Shown: positions 9,272-54,211 of the stretch, piece after piece
Numbering within the stretch: position 1 is the first letter of the stretch
Layout: the number at the start of each line of letters is the position of its first letter
Assembly (NCBI GenBank): GCA_013204045.1
Contig: JABMOQ010000007.1
Coordinates: forward strand, 1-58,816
DNA length: 58,816 bases
Origin: Rhodospirillaceae bacterium
GTDB taxonomy: Bacteria; Pseudomonadota; Alphaproteobacteria; Rhodospirillales; JABHCV01
Direction of reading: 5' to 3'
Translations under genes and position numbers: made by a program
Notes under the pieces: model-generated
What the model saw: the letters and a program-made list of their open reading frames with translations, nothing else
Told to the model about the DNA's origin: nothing
Database searches by the model: none

Positions 9272-10054
9272 ATGGCTAGCCATAAGGCCCTGATTCTTGC
9301 CGCACACGGCTCTTCGAATACAAAGCCGGACAACCTGGTTAGCCATCTCGCAGAAAATATTCACCGGCGCAACCTGTTCTCCGAGGTGACTGCTGGTTTC
9401 CTGATAGAAGAGCCGTTGCTGGGCAATGTCATTGGGAAAATAAAATCTGACGACATTATCGTCGTGCCGGTAACCGCCGCGAAAGGATACGTTACCGACC
9501 ACCTGATCCCCCGCGCCATCGACATGGCCTCGACTGGCAAGTCGGTCATCATTACCGAGCCTGTGGGAACCCACGCCTTGATCGCCAAAGTGATGGCAAG
9601 GCATGTAGATGCCATCGCCGCCATCCACCATCTGGCGGCTGATGACACCAGCCTTGTCATCGTCGCTCACGGCAATCCAAAACACGATGATAATGCCCGT
9701 CAGGCCCGGAGTGTTGGTAAATCCGTGGCGGCTTTGGCGGCCGCATCCTTAGGCAGCCCGCCAAGGGTGACCAATGTTTTTATCGATCAGGAACCTGCCT
9801 TGAAGGAATGGTCGAAGCTGGCCCGCGGTGGCAACCTGATTATTTTGCCATTGCTGATCGGTGGCGGCCGCCATGGTGTTGATGACCTGAGAGGCATGTT
9901 GGAATTACCGAAGACCGATCCCGCCTTCCAGAGCCTCGGCGATGTGCCCTATTTGGGCCCACTGGATATCCATGGTCGCAAAGTCTGGTGCTGCCGTGCG
10001 GTCGGTAACGAGCCGGAAATTGCCGACATTGTCGTTGAAAGAGCCGGGCTCTAG
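9272..10054 (+). CDS. Sirohydrochlorin chelatase (CbiX/SirB-like)
   Basis: Two-domain chelatase-type protein (260 residues). The N-terminal half begins LILAAHGSS and the second half LVIVAHGNP, both with the His typical of CbiX-like metal chelatases. It would insert iron into sirohydrochlorin, completing sirohaem for DsrAB; insertion of cobalt cannot be excluded from motifs alone. It starts 2 bp after cobA and is the last plus-strand gene of the operon. Its TAG stop overlaps the stop of the convergent coiled-coil gene in a shared CTAG, with no hairpin between them. Confidence 0.82.
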   Translation: MASHKALILAAHGSSNTKPDNLVSHLAENIHRRNLFSEVTAGFLIEEPLLGNVIGKIKSDDIIVVPVTAAKGYVTDHLIPRAIDMASTGKSVIITEPVGTHALIAKVMARHVDAIAAIHHLAADDTSLVIVAHGNPKHDDNARQARSVGKSVAALAAASLGSPPRVTNVFIDQEPALKEWSKLARGGNLIILPLLIGGGRHGVDDLRGMLELPKTDPAFQSLGDVPYLGPLDIHGRKVWCCRAVGNEPEIADIVVERAGL

Positions 10055-13000
10055 GTATCGGACAGCAACTCTCGCCCCAATGCCTGCGTCAGCACCATAT
10101 AGAGCTTGCCCATATCCGATGACAGGAAGATGGTGCCGAGAACGCCCTGATGGTCGCGTTTGCGTGCTTCGTCCAGAAAGCCTTTGAATTCGTCCATGTA
10201 ACGGGAAACATAATCGCGGAACTGGGTGTCTTCCTGATAACGTTGCTTGATAGAAGCAAGCCTGGCCTTGTCGCGGAAACCCAGCAACTTGCGAACGAAA
10301 ATGCCCTTCTCGCCGCGGTTGAAGCGTTTCCAGTCGTCCTCGCTGATGGTTGTTTCCATCAACCGGCTCATATCTACGGCCAAAGATTGCAAGCGCTCCA
10401 TGATAAATGTCGCACGTTTAAGGAAATCGTCGACACCGATCTCGCGTGAATGTTTTTTCAAAGCTTCCGTCAATTCCGTAGCTTCATTAACCGTTTTATT
10501 CATTTCACGGGTCTGTTTGTCGATAGACTTACTGACGCTTTCGGCCTGGCTGACAACCCGGCTAGATGTATCGCCAAGAATTTTGGCGCTTTCTCGGACG
10601 ATTCGATCCCAGTGATCGACCCTGCCAAGGGCTTTTTGGGTAACGCTATCCACTTCTTTGGCACGCTCGGTAAGTGATATGGTCAGCGCGCCCATCTTTG
10701 TTTCGGCGTTTTCATAGGCACTGGAAAGTTCCAGAAGTTGGCTGCGCAGTGAATCGTAGGCACCATCCATCCTGGAGGATAACTGCTCGGTTCGGCTGCT
10801 GGCTTCCTGGGAATGACGCCTGAGCAATTCTCCGACCTTTTGCAATTTGGCAGAACCTATGTCCGATGACCTGATGGCCTCGTCTGAACGTTGTGCCATT
10901 GACATGCCAACCCGGGCCAGGCGTGCCGAGGCTTCGTCCGATGCGTTGACAAGTTCCTGTGATCTTTGCCACAGGGCAGACGCGACTTCGGTAATTTTTC
11001 CAACAGCATTTTTTGCTGTGCCGTCCACATCCGTGGTGCGTTGTGCAAGAAGATGTCCAATCTCGGTAATCTGCCTGGTGACTCGCTCGCTGGTCTGGTC
11101 CAGCCCTGTGGCCAAAGTTTTCAGATCATCCCCTACCGTTTCCACGTTGACCTTGGCTATTTCGGAACTGGCAGTCAGATCCTCGGAATGTTTGTTAAGC
11201 GCCGATGTGACAAGGTTCATCAGCTTAGCCGCGCGTTCGACACTGATCCGCACCTCATGGGAACGCTCATGCAGGCCATCACCGACTTTGGAGATTTGCG
11301 CAACGGCATCACCGGAAACACTGGACAAAGTCGCCGCCTGCTCATGCACTTCATCGCCGAAGGATTTAAGATGTGAGGAGGCTTCTTCGTAGGAATGGTT
11401 TAAATCCTGGGTGCGCTTGCGCAATATTTGCCCGACCTCGCCCAAGCGATCGCTGGCACGGTCAAGGGATGCATCAAGATCATCTGTATGGGCATGCAAT
11501 GCTCCGGAAATATTTTCAAGCCTGGTTGACGCCCGATCCGTAGCTTCGGTTGCATCCAATACATTATCACGCAGAATCTCGCCGACCTTTTTAAGCTGCG
11601 CCGATGATCCTTCGGCTGTCTTGTTCAGGCTTTCTTCACCGGTTTTGATAAAACGTGAAACTTCATCAAGCTCTGCAATGGCTTGCCTTGAACGTTCTTC
11701 CAGACTATCCGTCTGCTCCTTCATTGCCTCGCCGGCATCCGCAAGGCGCATGGACGTTATCTCACCTATCTTACCCAGTTCCCGGGATCGTTCGCCAAAA
11801 GCCTCACCCGAAGCGCGTATTTTTGTCGTAGCTTCTTCGGTAGCCGTGTTCAGGGTTTCGGCTTGATGGTTCATAGCATCGGAAACAAGGGCGATTAGTT
11901 TTGCCGCTTTTTCAGATGAAGAAGCGATTTCATGGGAACGTTCTTGTAAAATATTGCCGATCTTAGAGACATCGGTCACGGCAATACCGGAAACACTGCC
12001 CAGCCCATCAGAATGTTTTTGCAGCAATTCACCGGCCGACTGCATGCGCACCGCCGCTTCGTCAGAGGCGGCGGTCATGTTTAGCAGGCTATGCCTGATT
12101 TCCTCGCCAACACCGCGCAACCTTACCGTTGCCCGTTCCGACATGGTGTTCAGGTCATCGGTGCGCCCCTTCACCAATTCCCCGGCATGATCCAGAAGTG
12201 TCGTCGCCCTGATCGAAATCTGACCAAGTCTTTCACCTTCTTCGCCAAGCATGGACGATGCTGCATTAACTCGATCTTCCGCCAACTCCGATACGGTCGT
12301 GATTGTATCTGTTGCCAACGTGCCGGCCTGCACAATCCGTTTTGCCGCCTGGTCGGATGCTGCGGCGACATCCCTGCCTTGGTTCATAACAAGGCTGCCG
12401 AGTTCCGTTATGCGCGATGCCGCGGTTTCGGAAATGCCCCTGACGTCTTCCATCTGGTTGCCCAGATCGCCAAGGATGCCGCTGGCTTTCTCGGATGATT
12501 TCTCGACCTGCATGACACCTTCTTGCAAATCCATAGTGGCCTTGCCGATACTGAGGGAGCTTTTTTCAACCGTGGAATCCAGGTTTTCAGAACTGTTGTT
12601 AAGGGTTTCGCTAAGGGCACCGATATGCGCACCGGATTTTTCGGCAACCACCGCCAATTCGGCGACGCTTTGGCGCACGGCATCACCGGCAGAATTGATG
12701 CGTAGAACCGTATGGTTCGACATTTTTGACAAATCATTGGTACGTTCACGGATGGCAATTCCCGCTTTGCCTACATTCTTTACGGCATCTTCAGAAGCAT
12801 CGGAAAGCTCTAGCGAGCGCAACTGCAAATCGTCGCCGACACGTTCCACCCTTTCGAGCACCCGATCCGATATCATTTCCAGGTCATGGGACGTCTGGCG
12901 CAGGTTTTCACCGATAGAGTTAGTCTTAGTCATCGTCCGGTCGGAAATCTGGTTCAGGTCATCGGCCTGTTTGCGGAAAGTATCTGCGCTTGATTTAACA

Positions 13001-14271
13001 TGCAGCGATACCTGCTGCGATGTGCCGACAAGTTCCCTCGCCTGACTGGACAATTCATCACCGATGGATTTCACATCGACGGCTACCTTGTCCGAAGTTT
13101 CCTTCAACACACGGTTCTGCCGATCAAGGTTGGCCTCGATCTCGGAAGTTTTTGCTGCGAGCAGGCGTCCGGTATCGGATAAATCATCTGTTTGACGCTT
13201 CAACTGTTCGCCGATCAGGTTTGTCTGGGCCTCGACCCTGTCGGAACGTTTGCTCAGGTCGACAGCATAACCGTGCAGAATTTCCGCCCCGTGCCCGACC
13301 TTGCCGACGGCGATGTCCGATTCTTTCAGCAGCGCTTCCAGTTGATGGCTCAGGGTGTCGCCCACCGACCCCGCCATGCCGACGGTTTGATCAGACATAT
13401 CCTTCAACTCCCGGATACGCTCGCGGAAGGTGTCGGCGGCGGTGCGGGTCATCTCGGCCACTTCTTCGGAAGTCCGTGACAATTCCTGGTTGCGACGATT
13501 CAAGACGTCGCTCATGTCTTCGGCCCGGGTCGAGGCGCGCTCCGAAGTGGTAACCATATCGTGGGAATGCTTGAACAAAATTTCGCCGGCGTGCTGGGCG
13601 CGCGCCGTCGCCTTTTCCGTAACCGCCCGAAGGTCTTCTGACTGACGGCGCAGCGACTCGGCGATCGCCTGGGCCCTGACATCGGCATCTTCCGATGCTT
13701 TTGTTAACGCCAGTGTCCGGCTCTGCACCTGCTCGTTGATTTTTTCTGCTCGCACGCTGGCTTCATCGGAAACCTTGCTGAGTTCCCGGGCCTGACGGCG
13801 CAACGCTTCGGTAATTTCATGAACCCTTGCTTGTGCCGTGTTCGACGGATAGGTCAATTGCCTGAGCTGCCAACCCAATGCCTGTGTTTCAGTCCTGATC
13901 TGACGTCCACGTTCGAAAAATGCGACGACCATCCACAACAATGCCAGCGGCGTCAACGTACCGGCCGCCATACCACCGATTTCATGAGGCAACAGGGCCG
14001 ACAAGTCGGAAAAAGCGATCTGCTCGTTGATAAAGGTGAGGCTGAACCATAACCAGACGGCGCTTAAAACGACTCCGGCAAGGGTCGCCAGTCGGTATCG
14101 GATGTAGAACGGCGGGGCCCAACGATCAAGCGTGTCATCGGCCACGGAGGCGCCGGGCGCACTGCCCAGTCCGTCGATTCCGATGTCAAAACCTTGTTCG
14201 GAAAGGTCGGACGCCGGATCGATGGCGCCTTCCTGCGGGCCTTGCTCTTGTCCGGTAATCTTTTTGACCAT
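10051..14271 (-). CDS. Giant membrane-anchored coiled-coil protein with ~45 repeats of 25 residues (TipN/GPR-like architecture)
   Basis: 1406 residues from the ATG at 14271, which has GGGGG six bases upstream; a TTG two codons earlier is less likely. Layout: a cytoplasmic N-terminus, two hydrophobic helices (about residues 60-80 and 101-119), then an uninterrupted helical region of about 45 units (about 156-1273). The common unit is 25 residues with pattern (A/I/L)L..(R/H)S.(D/E)L...S(D/E).A..(R/K)(L/V)..(V/A)G(D/E). A C-terminal domain of about 130 residues contains RFNRGEKGIF and a final SSDMGKLYMVLTQALGREL. Two N-terminal helices plus a huge coiled coil resemble alphaproteobacterial polarity proteins (TipN of Caulobacter, GPR of Agrobacterium). 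That link is an inference from architecture. A role as a polar or envelope scaffold is plausible; the function is not shown. Confidence 0.85.
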   Translation of the reverse strand: MVKKITGQEQGPQEGAIDPASDLSEQGFDIGIDGLGSAPGASVADDTLDRWAPPFYIRYRLATLAGVVLSAVWLWFSLTFINEQIAFSDLSALLPHEIGGMAAGTLTPLALLWMVVAFFERGRQIRTETQALGWQLRQLTYPSNTAQARVHEITEALRRQARELSKVSDEASVRAEKINEQVQSRTLALTKASEDADVRAQAIAESLRRQSEDLRAVTEKATARAQHAGEILFKHSHDMVTTSERASTRAEDMSDVLNRRNQELSRTSEEVAEMTRTAADTFRERIRELKDMSDQTVGMAGSVGDTLSHQLEALLKESDIAVGKVGHGAEILHGYAVDLSKRSDRVEAQTNLIGEQLKRQTDDLSDTGRLLAAKTSEIEANLDRQNRVLKETSDKVAVDVKSIGDELSSQARELVGTSQQVSLHVKSSADTFRKQADDLNQISDRTMTKTNSIGENLRQTSHDLEMISDRVLERVERVGDDLQLRSLELSDASEDAVKNVGKAGIAIRERTNDLSKMSNHTVLRINSAGDAVRQSVAELAVVAEKSGAHIGALSETLNNSSENLDSTVEKSSLSIGKATMDLQEGVMQVEKSSEKASGILGDLGNQMEDVRGISETAASRITELGSLVMNQGRDVAAASDQAAKRIVQAGTLATDTITTVSELAEDRVNAASSMLGEEGERLGQISIRATTLLDHAGELVKGRTDDLNTMSERATVRLRGVGEEIRHSLLNMTAASDEAAVRMQSAGELLQKHSDGLGSVSGIAVTDVSKIGNILQERSHEIASSSEKAAKLIALVSDAMNHQAETLNTATEEATTKIRASGEAFGERSRELGKIGEITSMRLADAGEAMKEQTDSLEERSRQAIAELDEVSRFIKTGEESLNKTAEGSSAQLKKVGEILRDNVLDATEATDRASTRLENISGALHAHTDDLDASLDRASDRLGEVGQILRKRTQDLNHSYEEASSHLKSFGDEVHEQAATLSSVSGDAVAQISKVGDGLHERSHEVRISVERAAKLMNLVTSALNKHSEDLTASSEIAKVNVETVGDDLKTLATGLDQTSERVTRQITEIGHLLAQRTTDVDGTAKNAVGKITEVASALWQRSQELVNASDEASARLARVGMSMAQRSDEAIRSSDIGSAKLQKVGELLRRHSQEASSRTEQLSSRMDGAYDSLRSQLLELSSAYENAETKMGALTISLTERAKEVDSVTQKALGRVDHWDRIVRESAKILGDTSSRVVSQAESVSKSIDKQTREMNKTVNEATELTEALKKHSREIGVDDFLKRATFIMERLQSLAVDMSRLMETTISEDDWKRFNRGEKGIFVRKLLGFRDKARLASIKQRYQEDTQFRDYVSRYMDEFKGFLDEARKRDHQGVLGTIFLSSDMGKLYMVLTQALGRELLSDT
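10453..13806 (-). repeat. Protein-level tandem repeat region: ~45 units, mostly exactly 25 codons
   Basis: Reading the giant protein in blocks of 25 from residue 156 keeps phase for 18 consecutive units. Then come single units of 21, 25 and 22 residues around residues 606-673, and then 24 further units of exactly 25. Twenty-five residues equals two heptads plus one hendecad, a period compatible with a nearly straight coiled coil. The units are well diverged at DNA level, so this is an old protein repeat and not a recent DNA tandem array. Confidence 0.85.
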
Positions 14272-14365
14272 GACCAACCCCCGTTATCATTCGTGGCCCG
14301 AACGCGCACAAACGGCGCACCTCAGGAACTCCGCAGTAACACGACATCATACACGATCAACATGA

Positions 14366-14431: not shown

Positions 14432-15172
14432 TCAGAACAGGTGCTGGCCGCCGGTTACCCAGACCTCGGTCCCGGTGACATAGCTGGAATCGTCGGAACA
14501 CAGGTAATAGATGGTGCCCGCCACATCCATGGGTGAGCCCATGCGTTCGAGGGGAATACGGGGGATCAGGGCCTCGTATTCGGGCTGCACCATATCCGTC
14601 TCGATCTCACCGGGGGCAACCGCATTGACCCTGACATCCAGGGCCGCAAATTCGTTGGCCAGTTCCCGGGTCAGCGCCGAAAGCGCCGCCTTGGAAATGG
14701 AATAGGCGGAACCGGCGAACGGGTGGATCTTGTGCCCGGCAATAGAGGTAACGTTGACGATGGCCCCCTTGCCCTGATGCAGGGGGGCGGCGAAGCCACG
14801 GGCCAGCTTCAGGCCGGCGAAGAAATTGATCTCGAAGACTTGGCGCCAGGCATTCAGATCACCGTTCAGGCAGCCCAAACGTTCCTTGTAGGGCGCCTTT
14901 GGCGACATGCCGGCATTATTGACCAGGCCATGCAGGGGTTGCCCTTCAAGGGCTGCATTGGCCTGTTTGATGAACGAAGCGATGGAGTCGGCATCGGCCA
15001 GGTCGGTCGGGATATGACAGGTCCAGTTGGGATCGCGCTTGCATTCGGCCGGGGTATCGTCCCGGGAACAGGTGATGATCCGCCAGCCGCGCTCCAGAAA
15101 AAGCGTCGCCGTGGCATGGCCGATGCCGCGACTGGCCCCGGTAATGATGACATTTTTGCGGTTTTCGTTCAT
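14432..15172 (-). CDS. SDR-family oxidoreductase
   Basis: Classical short-chain dehydrogenase/reductase (246 residues). The N-terminal NAD(P)-binding motif is TGASRGIG, NNAG is in VNNAGMSP, and the catalytic Tyr-Lys pair is in YSISKAAL, preceded by the Ser of VTSIAG. The C-terminus ends GTEVWVTGGQHLF, as in 3-oxoacyl-ACP reductase-like SDRs. The substrate cannot be told from sequence. It sits 24 bp downstream of the universal stress protein gene on the same strand. Confidence 0.88.
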   Translation of the reverse strand: MNENRKNVIITGASRGIGHATATLFLERGWRIITCSRDDTPAECKRDPNWTCHIPTDLADADSIASFIKQANAALEGQPLHGLVNNAGMSPKAPYKERLGCLNGDLNAWRQVFEINFFAGLKLARGFAAPLHQGKGAIVNVTSIAGHKIHPFAGSAYSISKAALSALTRELANEFAALDVRVNAVAPGEIETDMVQPEYEALIPRIPLERMGSPMDVAGTIYYLCSDDSSYVTGTEVWVTGGQHLF

Positions 15173-42637: not shown

Positions 42638-42677
42638 TGGTTAACGACCCAATATTGTGGTTAACGACCCAGTATTG
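42638..42677. repeat. Two tandem 20-bp operator-like repeats
   Basis: TGGTTAACGACCCAATATTG (42638-42657) is followed with no spacer by the same 20-mer with a single A-to-G change (42658-42677). A weaker GTAACCCAG remnant follows. The 20-bp period is close to two helical turns, so two protein molecules could bind on one DNA face. They lie 19-58 bp upstream of the HTH gene start. Confidence 0.75.
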
Positions 42678-51873: not shown

Positions 51874-52172
51874 CTACTATTACTATCCTGATGATTTATA
51901 AGGATTTTTTATGGTGTTTTTTTCAAGTGAATGAAAAGTGAATGGTGATATGCCTTTTGTTGTGTGGCTTCTAAGCGATTATTAGCAACTGCACAACAGC
52001 CTTATATAACATAGCACTTAGCCGGAAAAGTCTTATCAAGATTCCATTCTTCATCTTCTCCCACTACACTCAAAAGCTAACTGCGTTTCTTTTATAAGCC
52101 CTATGGCATCAGGCTAAGGGTGACTGGAATGCCGCACAGCTTCTAAGAAAATTTTAGGACAAGCCATTTCCT

Positions 52173-52266
52173 AAAAAGTGATTTGACAACCAAAAAAATT
52201 AATGTAATCATTAGTTGTTGCATATAACACATATCGGTCCTCCTTAGGAGGACCGATATGTGTTAT
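52173..52266 (+). promoter_or_regulatory. Module 1: promoter-like element plus perfect 43-bp palindrome
   Basis: AAAAAGTGATTTGACA starts at 52173 (TTGACA at 52183-52188), with TAATCATTA at 52205-52213 as -10 region. A perfect palindrome follows at 52224-52266: arms of 21 bp, with the central bases TTA, containing ATAAC, ATATC and CCTCC/GGAGG blocks. It is homologous to module 2 about 106 bp downstream. Transcripts from this promoter would start at or near the palindrome, so it may also act as a 5' hairpin. Confidence 0.8.
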
Positions 52267-52278
52267 TGGGTACAAATA

Positions 52279-52375
52279 AAAAAGTGATTTGACACATGAG
52301 ATGAGTCGGATTATCATTAATCTGTGTCTAGATAACGGATATCCTACCTCCTGAGGAGGTAGGATATCCGTTATC
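52279..52375 (+). promoter_or_regulatory. Module 2: promoter-like element plus perfect 45-bp palindrome
   Basis: The same AAAAAGTGATTTGACA recurs at 52279-52294 (TTGACA 52289-52294), with TTATCATTA at 52311-52319, the same distance as in module 1. The palindrome at 52331-52375 has arms of 22 bp with central TGA and conserved ATAAC, ATATC and CCTCC/GGAGG blocks. The bases between the blocks differ from module 1, yet both arms still pair perfectly. It lies 38 bp before the AbiEi-like gene and is a natural operator for it. Confidence 0.8.
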
Positions 52376-52413
52376 CGCAACATACTCAAATAATTCTTTG
52401 TTTTCAGGGCGTT

Positions 52414-53331
52414 ATGGACACACTTTCTTTTTCTCAGGCGATGGTATTAGCCCTAGCGGATACAGGGAAACCTGTGATTTCGGATTTTGACCTAAGCATT
52501 ATCATAGCTGAATTGCTAACTTATAAAATGTACAACAGCACTCGAATTAGTGTGCGCCAAGGCGACATTGATCAAGAGAGTTTCACTCGAAGAATTCGAA
52601 CGATCGAAAAAAATAGAATTGTTATTCCCGATGAGGACTTCTCACGAGGCAGACCCTCGCCGAAGATACGTTATGGAGCTAATGTTTGGTGGATATCAGG
52701 CGCCCCTAAAGGAACAGCCGAAGATGTGGCGTGTATAACAGATCCTTTTTGTCACATTTCATATCTCTCAGCGATGCAGCGTTATGGTCTCACAGAGAGA
52801 GCCCCTAAAAACCTAATATTGGGTACATACAAGCGAGATGCCTGGAATTCTCAACGAGATAAACTTGAAGAAACTATATTAGAAAAAATTAATGCTGACG
52901 GACTAGCTTTAAGAAAGATTTCAATGCCATCAAAAATAAGAGGCAGAAAAATTGAAATTCATGAATTTGGACAACCACGAAAAACAATAGACGTAGTAGA
53001 TACCTTCGCAAGAGTATCAGAAATCGGAACAACATTTGTAGATATGCTGGAGCGTCCCGAGCTCTGCGGTGGAATGGAACATATTCTAACAATATGGGAG
53101 AATGAATCTGAAAAATACCTTGATCAGATAATTAGATCAGTTGATCAAACTCCGAGAAAAATTACTAAAGTAAGAGCTGGTTACATTCTCGATGAACGCA
53201 TGGGTTTGAATGACACGCGCGTCATGAAATGGCAAACATACGCTACCAGAGGCGGTGACCAAAAGCTTGATCCTCATGGCGATTTTCGTCCACCATATTC
53301 CGACAAATGGATGATCTCAATAAATGGATGA
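52414..53331 (+). CDS. abiEi: AbiEi-family antitoxin/transcriptional regulator
   Basis: 305 residues, AT-rich compared with neighbours. The N-terminal helical segment (LSFSQAMVLALADTGKPVISDFDLSIIIAELL) looks like a winged-helix antitoxin part; ISYLSAMQRYGLTERAPKNLILGT is reminiscent of AbiEi core sequences. In type IV AbiE systems AbiEi both counters AbiEii and represses its own promoter at inverted repeats. The 8-bp overlap with the AbiEii-like gene and the palindromes upstream fit that. The family link is by motif and context. Confidence 0.8.
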   Translation: MDTLSFSQAMVLALADTGKPVISDFDLSIIIAELLTYKMYNSTRISVRQGDIDQESFTRRIRTIEKNRIVIPDEDFSRGRPSPKIRYGANVWWISGAPKGTAEDVACITDPFCHISYLSAMQRYGLTERAPKNLILGTYKRDAWNSQRDKLEETILEKINADGLALRKISMPSKIRGRKIEIHEFGQPRKTIDVVDTFARVSEIGTTFVDMLERPELCGGMEHILTIWENESEKYLDQIIRSVDQTPRKITKVRAGYILDERMGLNDTRVMKWQTYATRGGDQKLDPHGDFRPPYSDKWMISING

Positions 53332-54211
53332 TTTCAAAATTATTCCAGCGGAATTGGATATTCGCGATTGGGTAATCAATGCAAAAGATGACCCTGTAAA
53401 TTTCCGTTCTCGTCAGGTCACAGAAATTTTATTAACGGCAATTGGCCTAACCAAAAGCCTCAAGGATTGCCTGTTCCTTAAAGGAGGAACATTGATGGCC
53501 TTGGGATTTAGAAGCAGTCGCGTCACAGCCGATGTTGATTTTACATCAAATGCTGATCCAGAAGACTTACCAGAGAGGTTAAAGGAAGAGCTCAATCGTG
53601 GCCTTCAGCAAGCTCAGGCGAGCCTTGGCTATCTGGACTTAATGTGCCAAGTCCAAAAAATCAAAAAAAGACCCCGCCCAATTAATTTTTCAGATCAAGA
53701 TTTTCCCGCACTGGAAGTGGGAATTGCCTATACAATTAGAGGCAGTAAGGGTGAAAAACGTTTCCATGAAGGACATGGAACAGATGTTGTGAAAGTAGAA
53801 ATAAGTTTTAAAGAACAAGTTTACGCTTTTCAAGAACTGCACCTATCTAAAGCTGGTGTCGCTATATACGCTTATTCTGTGACGGAAGTCATTGCAGAAA
53901 AATTACGCGCCCTTCTACAACAACCCAAACTAAGAGATAAATCTAGGCGACAAGATATTTACGACATTTCGTATTTAACTGATGGTCAAGACTTTAATGA
54001 TGATGAGCGCAAATTAATTTTTCAAACTTTTATAGATAAATGCAAAACCAGGGACATTTATCCAACGCCCGACTCTTTCGATCACCCCAAGATAAAGGAA
54101 CTTGCGTTCAAAGAATGGCACACTCTAAAAGATGAAGTGGAGGAACTGCCTGACTTTGAAGAACGGTTTACCGTAGTGTCAAAATTTTATAAAAATTTAC
54201 CTTGGTCTTAA
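53324..54211 (+). CDS. abiEii: AbiEii-family nucleotidyltransferase toxin
   Basis: 295 residues with the nucleotidyltransferase signature FLKGGTLMALGFRSSRVTADVDF: GG, then DxD about 13 residues on. A further Asp/Glu motif is VVKVEISF, and the helical EKLRALLQQ...RRQDIYDISYL region is typical of AbiEii/AbiGii toxins. The likely activity is nucleotide transfer onto an RNA or other target, held off by AbiEi. Codon use is AT-rich like its partner. It overlaps AbiEi by 8 bp. Confidence 0.87.
   Translation: MDDFKIIPAELDIRDWVINAKDDPVNFRSRQVTEILLTAIGLTKSLKDCLFLKGGTLMALGFRSSRVTADVDFTSNADPEDLPERLKEELNRGLQQAQASLGYLDLMCQVQKIKKRPRPINFSDQDFPALEVGIAYTIRGSKGEKRFHEGHGTDVVKVEISFKEQVYAFQELHLSKAGVAIYAYSVTEVIAEKLRALLQQPKLRDKSRRQDIYDISYLTDGQDFNDDERKLIFQTFIDKCKTRDIYPTPDSFDHPKIKELAFKEWHTLKDEVEELPDFEERFTVVSKFYKNLPWS

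Follow-up and report, generated by a model that had tools for sequence, protein, structure and literature searches.

A 58,816-nucleotide stretch of Rhodospirillaceae bacterium DNA (contig JABMOQ010000007.1 of assembly GCA_013204045.1), here called the window, carries a gene for a long repetitive protein, the rod protein, which probably is a membrane-anchored cytoplasmic coiled-coil rod of an extended RgsE/GPR family serving, in a scaffold of the pole or septum, as a spacer set by its length. The layout, shared across the family, is an N-terminal membrane hairpin, a rod and a conserved C-terminal domain (C-domain).

An independent layout of repeat units divided the rod into 18 units of 25 residues (146-595), three irregular units of 21 (596-616), 25 (617-641) and 22 residues (642-663), and a second arm of 24 units of 25 (664-1263), among which the unit at 864-888 is weak. 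This reproduces exactly the series reported in a first-pass annotation made from the sequence alone, whose limits of 10453-13806 enclose the same 1118 residues as 10489-13842, with the repeat frame set 12 residues further on. Self-similarity maxima were observed at lags of 25, 50, 75, 100, 125 and 150, and the hydrophobic pattern of the rod has 3.573 residues per turn, i.e. 25/7. The lag-25 score was 0.781 compared with -0.565 +/- 0.060 for 2000 shuffles, and 1000 shuffles preserving the hydrophobic pattern gave scores of 0.12 or below, indicating that surface, non-core positions repeat too. Consensus core positions of the unit are 3, 7, 10, 14, 18, 21 and 25, glycine occupies unit position 11 in 23 of 42 units, and the 1118 residues include 0 proline and 0 cysteine. 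As a control, the same kind of measure applied to the coil of this genome's SMC protein gave period 7 and 3.50 residues per turn. The units had been described as near-perfect, which holds for their length but not for their sequence: pairwise identity has a mean of 20.5% and a maximum of 52%, and no DNA tandem repeat was found in the rod region, so the strictness lies in length rather than sequence. Similarly, the term "nearly straight" is only partly apt for the rod, as 3.57 residues per turn is still weak left-handed supercoiling; the available text of PMC9858780 gives a relaxed helix value of 3.63, to which hendecads (3.67) are closer than 3.57 is.

The C-domain links this protein to RgsE. 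Residues 1292-1402 matched a Sinorhizobium meliloti coding sequence of 2089 codons annotated 'kinesin' (33% identity, tblastn E 4e-13), and the S. meliloti protein scored 102 bits with C-domain profile A1, built from Rhodospirillales only and without RgsE. The S. meliloti record was taken as RgsE because of its length of 2089, its species of origin and its match to PF01442. In the accessible parts of PMC7327166, RgsE is a GPR homologue of 2,089 amino acids found at the growing pole only, inner-membrane anchored with its bulk cytoplasmic and with TolQ, RgsA and RgsS as partners, and distant RgsE homologues in Emcibacterales and Rhodospirillales are already in print there. For GPR, the sections available of PMC8262873 report that loss of the last 221 residues abolished function and that loss of the last 10 gave curved, constricted cells. 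The rod protein resembles RgsE in its homologous C-domain, its two N-terminal membrane helices and its very long helical cytoplasmic part, with a rod of about 1,100 residues compared with about 1,770 in RgsE; GPR was compared by description only. The homology lends support to the membrane-anchored scaffold of GPR-like plan that had been proposed from the sequence, and on these comparisons the rod protein is best described as a diverged representative of a scaffold family already known, in which it stands apart by its coil.

Rod length, taken as the distance between profile ends, was compared in 28 members whose two domains share a single frame. It was exactly 1067 residues in ten of these and 1089 in four, which include the window rod; as loci L002 and L017 hold the same protein, the group of four contains one duplicate. 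The other rods measured 1074 (n=2), 1060 and 1066 (one each), and 878, 946, 1122, 1155, 1158, 1177, 1242, 1287, 1630 and 1655 residues (one each), which ruled out that length always changes in multiples of 25. The ten 1067-residue rods derive from six families (three from f21 and two from f14) and one named metagenome-assembled genome (MAG), with pairwise identities of 26-75% (median 34%). Ten equal rods at such low identity suggest that length itself is under selection, as the first-pass annotation had claimed.

Phase maps, built with a profile trained on the window and favouring its phase, mostly showed 16-17 steps of 25, then a single 46-residue step (25 + 21) and a further 23-25 steps of 25. 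This 46-residue phase slip was present at one place in 26 of the 28 members; it was absent in L034, and L028 has steps of 32 and 39. RgsE-type rods run through a similar script were without this pattern. Relative to the 1067-residue rods the window rod carries an extra 22 residues beside the slip, and irregular zone 1 is a conserved phase slip plus a lineage-specific 22-residue insertion. At the second joint (864-888), insertions of 22 (L004), 55 (L003), 88 (L015) and 110 residues (L009 and L006) were found, all multiples of 11, while at the first joint L010 is longer than the short form by 220; measured against the short form, the joint insertions of L001, L002, L003, L004, L006, L009, L010 and L015 are all multiples of 11. 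The first arm is about seven units longer in L012 and about five shorter in L016. L121 and L122 have 563 and 588 extra residues, not multiples of 11, and carry block duplications of 6-7 units. In the L122 rod a block of about 180-200 residues was seen in four similar copies, each with its own 46-residue phase slip.

The strongest rival to the spacer function, which we judge to have a little less than an even chance, is that length and phase were inherited from an ancient duplication of units and kept by coil packing with no ruler role. It is compatible with the scaffold and opposes the spacer part only. The very different rod lengths of other members, some of them without the phase, and the block duplications in L121 and L122 are in its favour; the ten equal rods, from at least six families and down to 26% identity, and the single slip kept in almost all members argue for more than packing alone.

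To place the 25-residue phase within the class, eight periods (7, 11, 18, 22, 25, 29, 32 and 36) were compared in 63 members, a count that left out near relatives (L003-L009, L011 and L013-L035), short-flank loci (L039-L068) and rods under 250 residues. The best period was 25 in 50 members, 11 or 22 in 8, 29 in 3 and 18 in 2. In a later set of 17 new rods of sufficient length, chosen for Rhizobiales-like and f82 members, 25 was best in 5, 11 or 22 in 6, 36 in 4 (one tied with 25), 18 in 1 and 7 in 1. Six clear hendecad rods (Sinorhizobium, Shinella, f88, f175 and f179) formed one branch of a C-domain tree with a Shimodaira-Hasegawa-like approximate likelihood ratio (SH-aLRT) of 99, and L090 and L097, labelled 11, have an ambiguous period and were placed elsewhere. 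This tree was made by a quick method from 114 columns, has many open forks and is unrooted, and so does not order the 25-residue and hendecad states. As 25 is best in most members tested, the 25-residue phase represents the common state and the RgsE branch the exception. The first-pass annotation had held that homologues without this phase would count against its interpretation; such homologues do exist, S. meliloti RgsE (11/22) among them, as one clear branch within a family most of whose tested members keep the phase. Its repeat observation is thus confirmed and its interpretation as a whole partly supported.

The full rod protein matched 49 of 60 genomes of the order, its own included. The 15 named MAG loci comprise 13 titled Rhodospirillales or Rhodospirillaceae, one Magnetovibrio and one Alphaproteobacteria. 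A C-domain profile from 26 order sequences matched 147 of 387 class genomes and a class-wide profile (59 sequences) matched 156 of the 387 Alphaproteobacteria genomes; in a draw from the phylum, for which the class make-up is not given, 128 of 397 genomes matched, all of them the genome itself or members of the same order or class. Most carrier genomes have one gene only. In family f49 the C-domain lies in frames of 329-481 amino acids (35 genomes, E 4e-12 to 2e-4), and in the five f49 proteins examined, two membrane helices were seen and 122-136 residues separate the hairpin from the domain. At the f49 loci L149-L151, L119 and L120, proteins of 330-354 amino acids have two membrane helices and the C-domain, with the rod nearly absent. 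A 420-amino-acid frame at L118 (G008:C25) has the hairpin domain (E 5e-16) without the C-domain and may be a paralogue, and extra weak C-domain matches occur in frames of 333-337 amino acids at G022:C222 and G022:C151, whose genome encodes the long form as well.

If the rod protein acts as a spacer in a pole or septum scaffold, the hairpin would occupy the inner membrane of the new pole or septum, Tol-Pal helping to place it there, and the rod would oligomerise into a coil of up to about 165 nm (1118 x 0.15 nm) if it is one continuous helix. The rod would keep the C-domain at a set distance from the membrane, where this domain would recruit cytoplasmic partners. A number of observations weigh against this interpretation. 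In the accessible parts of PMC7327166, Krol et al. report no other Rgs homologues in Rhodospirillales and consider a different role there possible. The RgsE rod has an 11/22 repeat with 3.65 residues per turn, compared with 25/7 and 3.57 in the window, and the RgsE hairpin was not recognised by profile A2, the profile of the N-terminal hairpin domain (28 sequences). No Hpt-like gene, a neighbour of the rod gene elsewhere in the class, was found beside the window's rod gene or at any order locus screened. Class-wide rod length varies strongly, in open reading frames (ORFs) of 329 to 2872 amino acids, and the 0 gapped columns of 1063 among the ten 1067-residue rods come from an alignment made with a raised gap penalty, their equal length being independent of it. 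AF2 models are too weak to support a fold for the C-domain (predicted local distance difference test, pLDDT, 62; low confidence) or a continuous helix for residues 560-930 (pLDDT 55), the latter model having low-confidence breaks near residues 657-662 and 759-763.

A second rival explanation is an envelope or chromosome tether unrelated to polarity, a membrane-anchored strut distributed evenly, with the C-domain binding DNA or another cytoplasmic structure. The conserved neighbours of the rod gene (SDR, Usp and cobalamin genes) are indeed metabolic rather than division genes, and the coil gave rise to weak matches with coils of the SMC and ATG17 types; however, both families were rejected at scores far under their cut-offs (14.4 versus 729 for SMC, 16.9 versus 43 for ATG17) and the C-domain is homologous to that of polar RgsE, making this explanation unlikely. 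Very improbable is a bacterial apolipoprotein whose helical repeats would attach to lipid of the membrane and not to one another, a proposal made for GPR, which is described as an apolipoprotein in the available text of PMC8262873: PF01442 covers RgsE (258 bits, 12 stretches), but the family search of the rod protein gave no PF01442 match, the rod gene as best PF01442 match of its genome reaches 25.5 bits where the cut-off is 90, the rod follows a 25/7 repeat, regular in its core, and not an 11/22 one, and the RgsE match, like the published apolipoprotein description of GPR and RgsE, may follow from the hendecad pattern.

More tentatively, and with the balance of probability tilted against it, the spacer interpretation can be extended to a modular spacer throughout Alphaproteobacteria, in which a hairpin and a C-terminal recruiting domain would be held at a species-set distance counted in 25-residue units. 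Rods in Rhodospirillales would then often be fixed at 1067 residues with one phase slip, extra length being added at two joints mostly by 11, and the RgsE branch would have recast its rod into hendecads, perhaps with use in polar growth. Short forms would span about 20 nm, and the longest would exceed 300 nm. Independently of this extension, the family connects a scaffold known chiefly from Rhizobiales with polar growth to many alphaproteobacterial lineages. Given the exact length, slip, two insertion sites and natural variants of about 330 to 2,800 residues, it can be tested directly whether a bacterial scaffold uses a molecular ruler. No earlier description of the wide occurrence in Alphaproteobacteria of the C-domain together with a membrane hairpin, or of the class-wide 25-residue phase, fixed length, conserved slip or joints, was found in the literature searched. 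No paper was retrieved on coiled coils with a 25-residue repeat or on TipN together with Rhodospirillales, and none of the 15 papers listed, out of 335 naming two of TipN, Magnetospirillum, Rhodospirillum and Azospirillum, mentions TipN.

The coordinates of the gene, its domains and its immediate neighbours are collected in the table below. An ATG lies two codons inside the listed start, at 14271. An acidic loop precedes membrane helix 2 and an arginine-rich segment follows it; by the positive-inside rule these charges suggest that both ends are cytoplasmic. The C-domain has 29 invariant columns in an alignment of 26 Rhodospirillales sequences. Pfam and NCBIfam searches of the rod protein gave weak matches only, all below cut-off, and neither database names the C-domain above cut-off; ZorA (Zorya) was rejected at 9.4 bits against a cut-off of 190. 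A search of solved structures with profile A1 gave no match under E 0.03, and Foldseek against the PDB with the C-domain AF2 model gave 121 matches at E<=10 and 0 at E<=0.001.

Table. Features of the rod-protein gene and its neighbours in the window.
Feature	Position	Strand	Residues and remarks	Basis
SDR-family gene	14432..15172	minus	directly upstream of rod gene; neighbour conserved in the order	
Rod-protein gene	10051..14277	minus	1408 aa; start listed TTG; single open frame	
Conserved N-terminal domain with two-helix membrane hairpin	13828..14133	minus	49-150	alignment A2, hydropathy
Predicted membrane helix 1	14029..14085	minus	about 65-83	hydropathy
Predicted membrane helix 2	13924..13980	minus	about 100-118	hydropathy
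Rod	10489..13842	minus	146-1263; 45 units, period 25	self-similarity, unit layout
Irregular zone 1	12289..12492	minus	596-663; 21+25+22	unit layout, phase maps
Irregular zone 2	11614..11688	minus	864-888; weak unit	unit layout, relatives' insertions
Helical stem between rod and C-domain	10408..10563	minus	1239-1290; overlaps last unit	A1 alignment, low-confidence model
Conserved C-terminal domain core	10069..10407	minus	about 113 aa; across Alphaproteobacteria	A1 and A4 profiles
CbiX-family gene	9272..10054	plus	convergent with rod gene	

Cobalamin genes are conserved downstream of the rod gene in the order, and at 42 order loci, many with flanks too short for either gene, the SDR gene was found upstream in 23 and cobA downstream in 14. 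Between the SDR and rod genes of L008 (958-4371), L009 (6433-9777) and L014 (5766-9289), glycosyltransferase, TPR and glycerophosphotransferase-type genes were observed. Outside the order, a small gene resembling the Hpt neighbour found in S. meliloti or Sphingomonas was present near the rod gene at 21 of 75 loci; apart from L152 it lies on the strand opposite to the rod gene, and Pfam recognised Hpt in two of three such neighbours tested. An Hpt gene adjoins the rod gene at L036 and L037, as seen in Sinorhizobium and Shinella; positions of Hpt-like neighbours include 2090-2482 in L036 and 4829-5128 in L038, with others at L073, L074, L104-L107 and further loci. Elsewhere in the window's genome, TolQ (278 bits) and a DUF2497 protein (82.6 bits) were detected, both in keeping with the scaffold reading; DUF2497, which we take to be the PopZ-type domain, was matched in the control set only in Caulobacter. 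Within the window, GC content falls to 0.40 at 52001-54000 compared with about 0.56 elsewhere, and a 20-base tandem repeat occurs in two copies at 42638-42677.

Among other known systems, the available text of PMC8546619 calls GPR similar to TipN, whose polar placement requires Tol-Pal according to that of PMC7391070. ORFs of family f82 (830-936 amino acids) gave weak C-domain matches at seven loci (E 9e-8 to 6e-13), and searches of the plasmid collection with two candidate TipN-like proteins, one of them from f82, gave no match. Scy and FilP of Streptomyces, as described in the portions available of PMC9858780, are likewise coiled-coil division or polarity proteins with non-heptad periodicity, the Scy rod exceeding 1,000 residues, but they have hendecads and a DivIVA-like N-terminus, so that the likeness is one of analogy, drawn from description only. 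SMC proteins differ from the window rod in having a heptad coil with an ATPase, period 7 being found in the SMC of the window's own genome, whereas their arms resemble it in that, according to the accessible text of PMC5344682, coiled-coil length is under stepwise selection.

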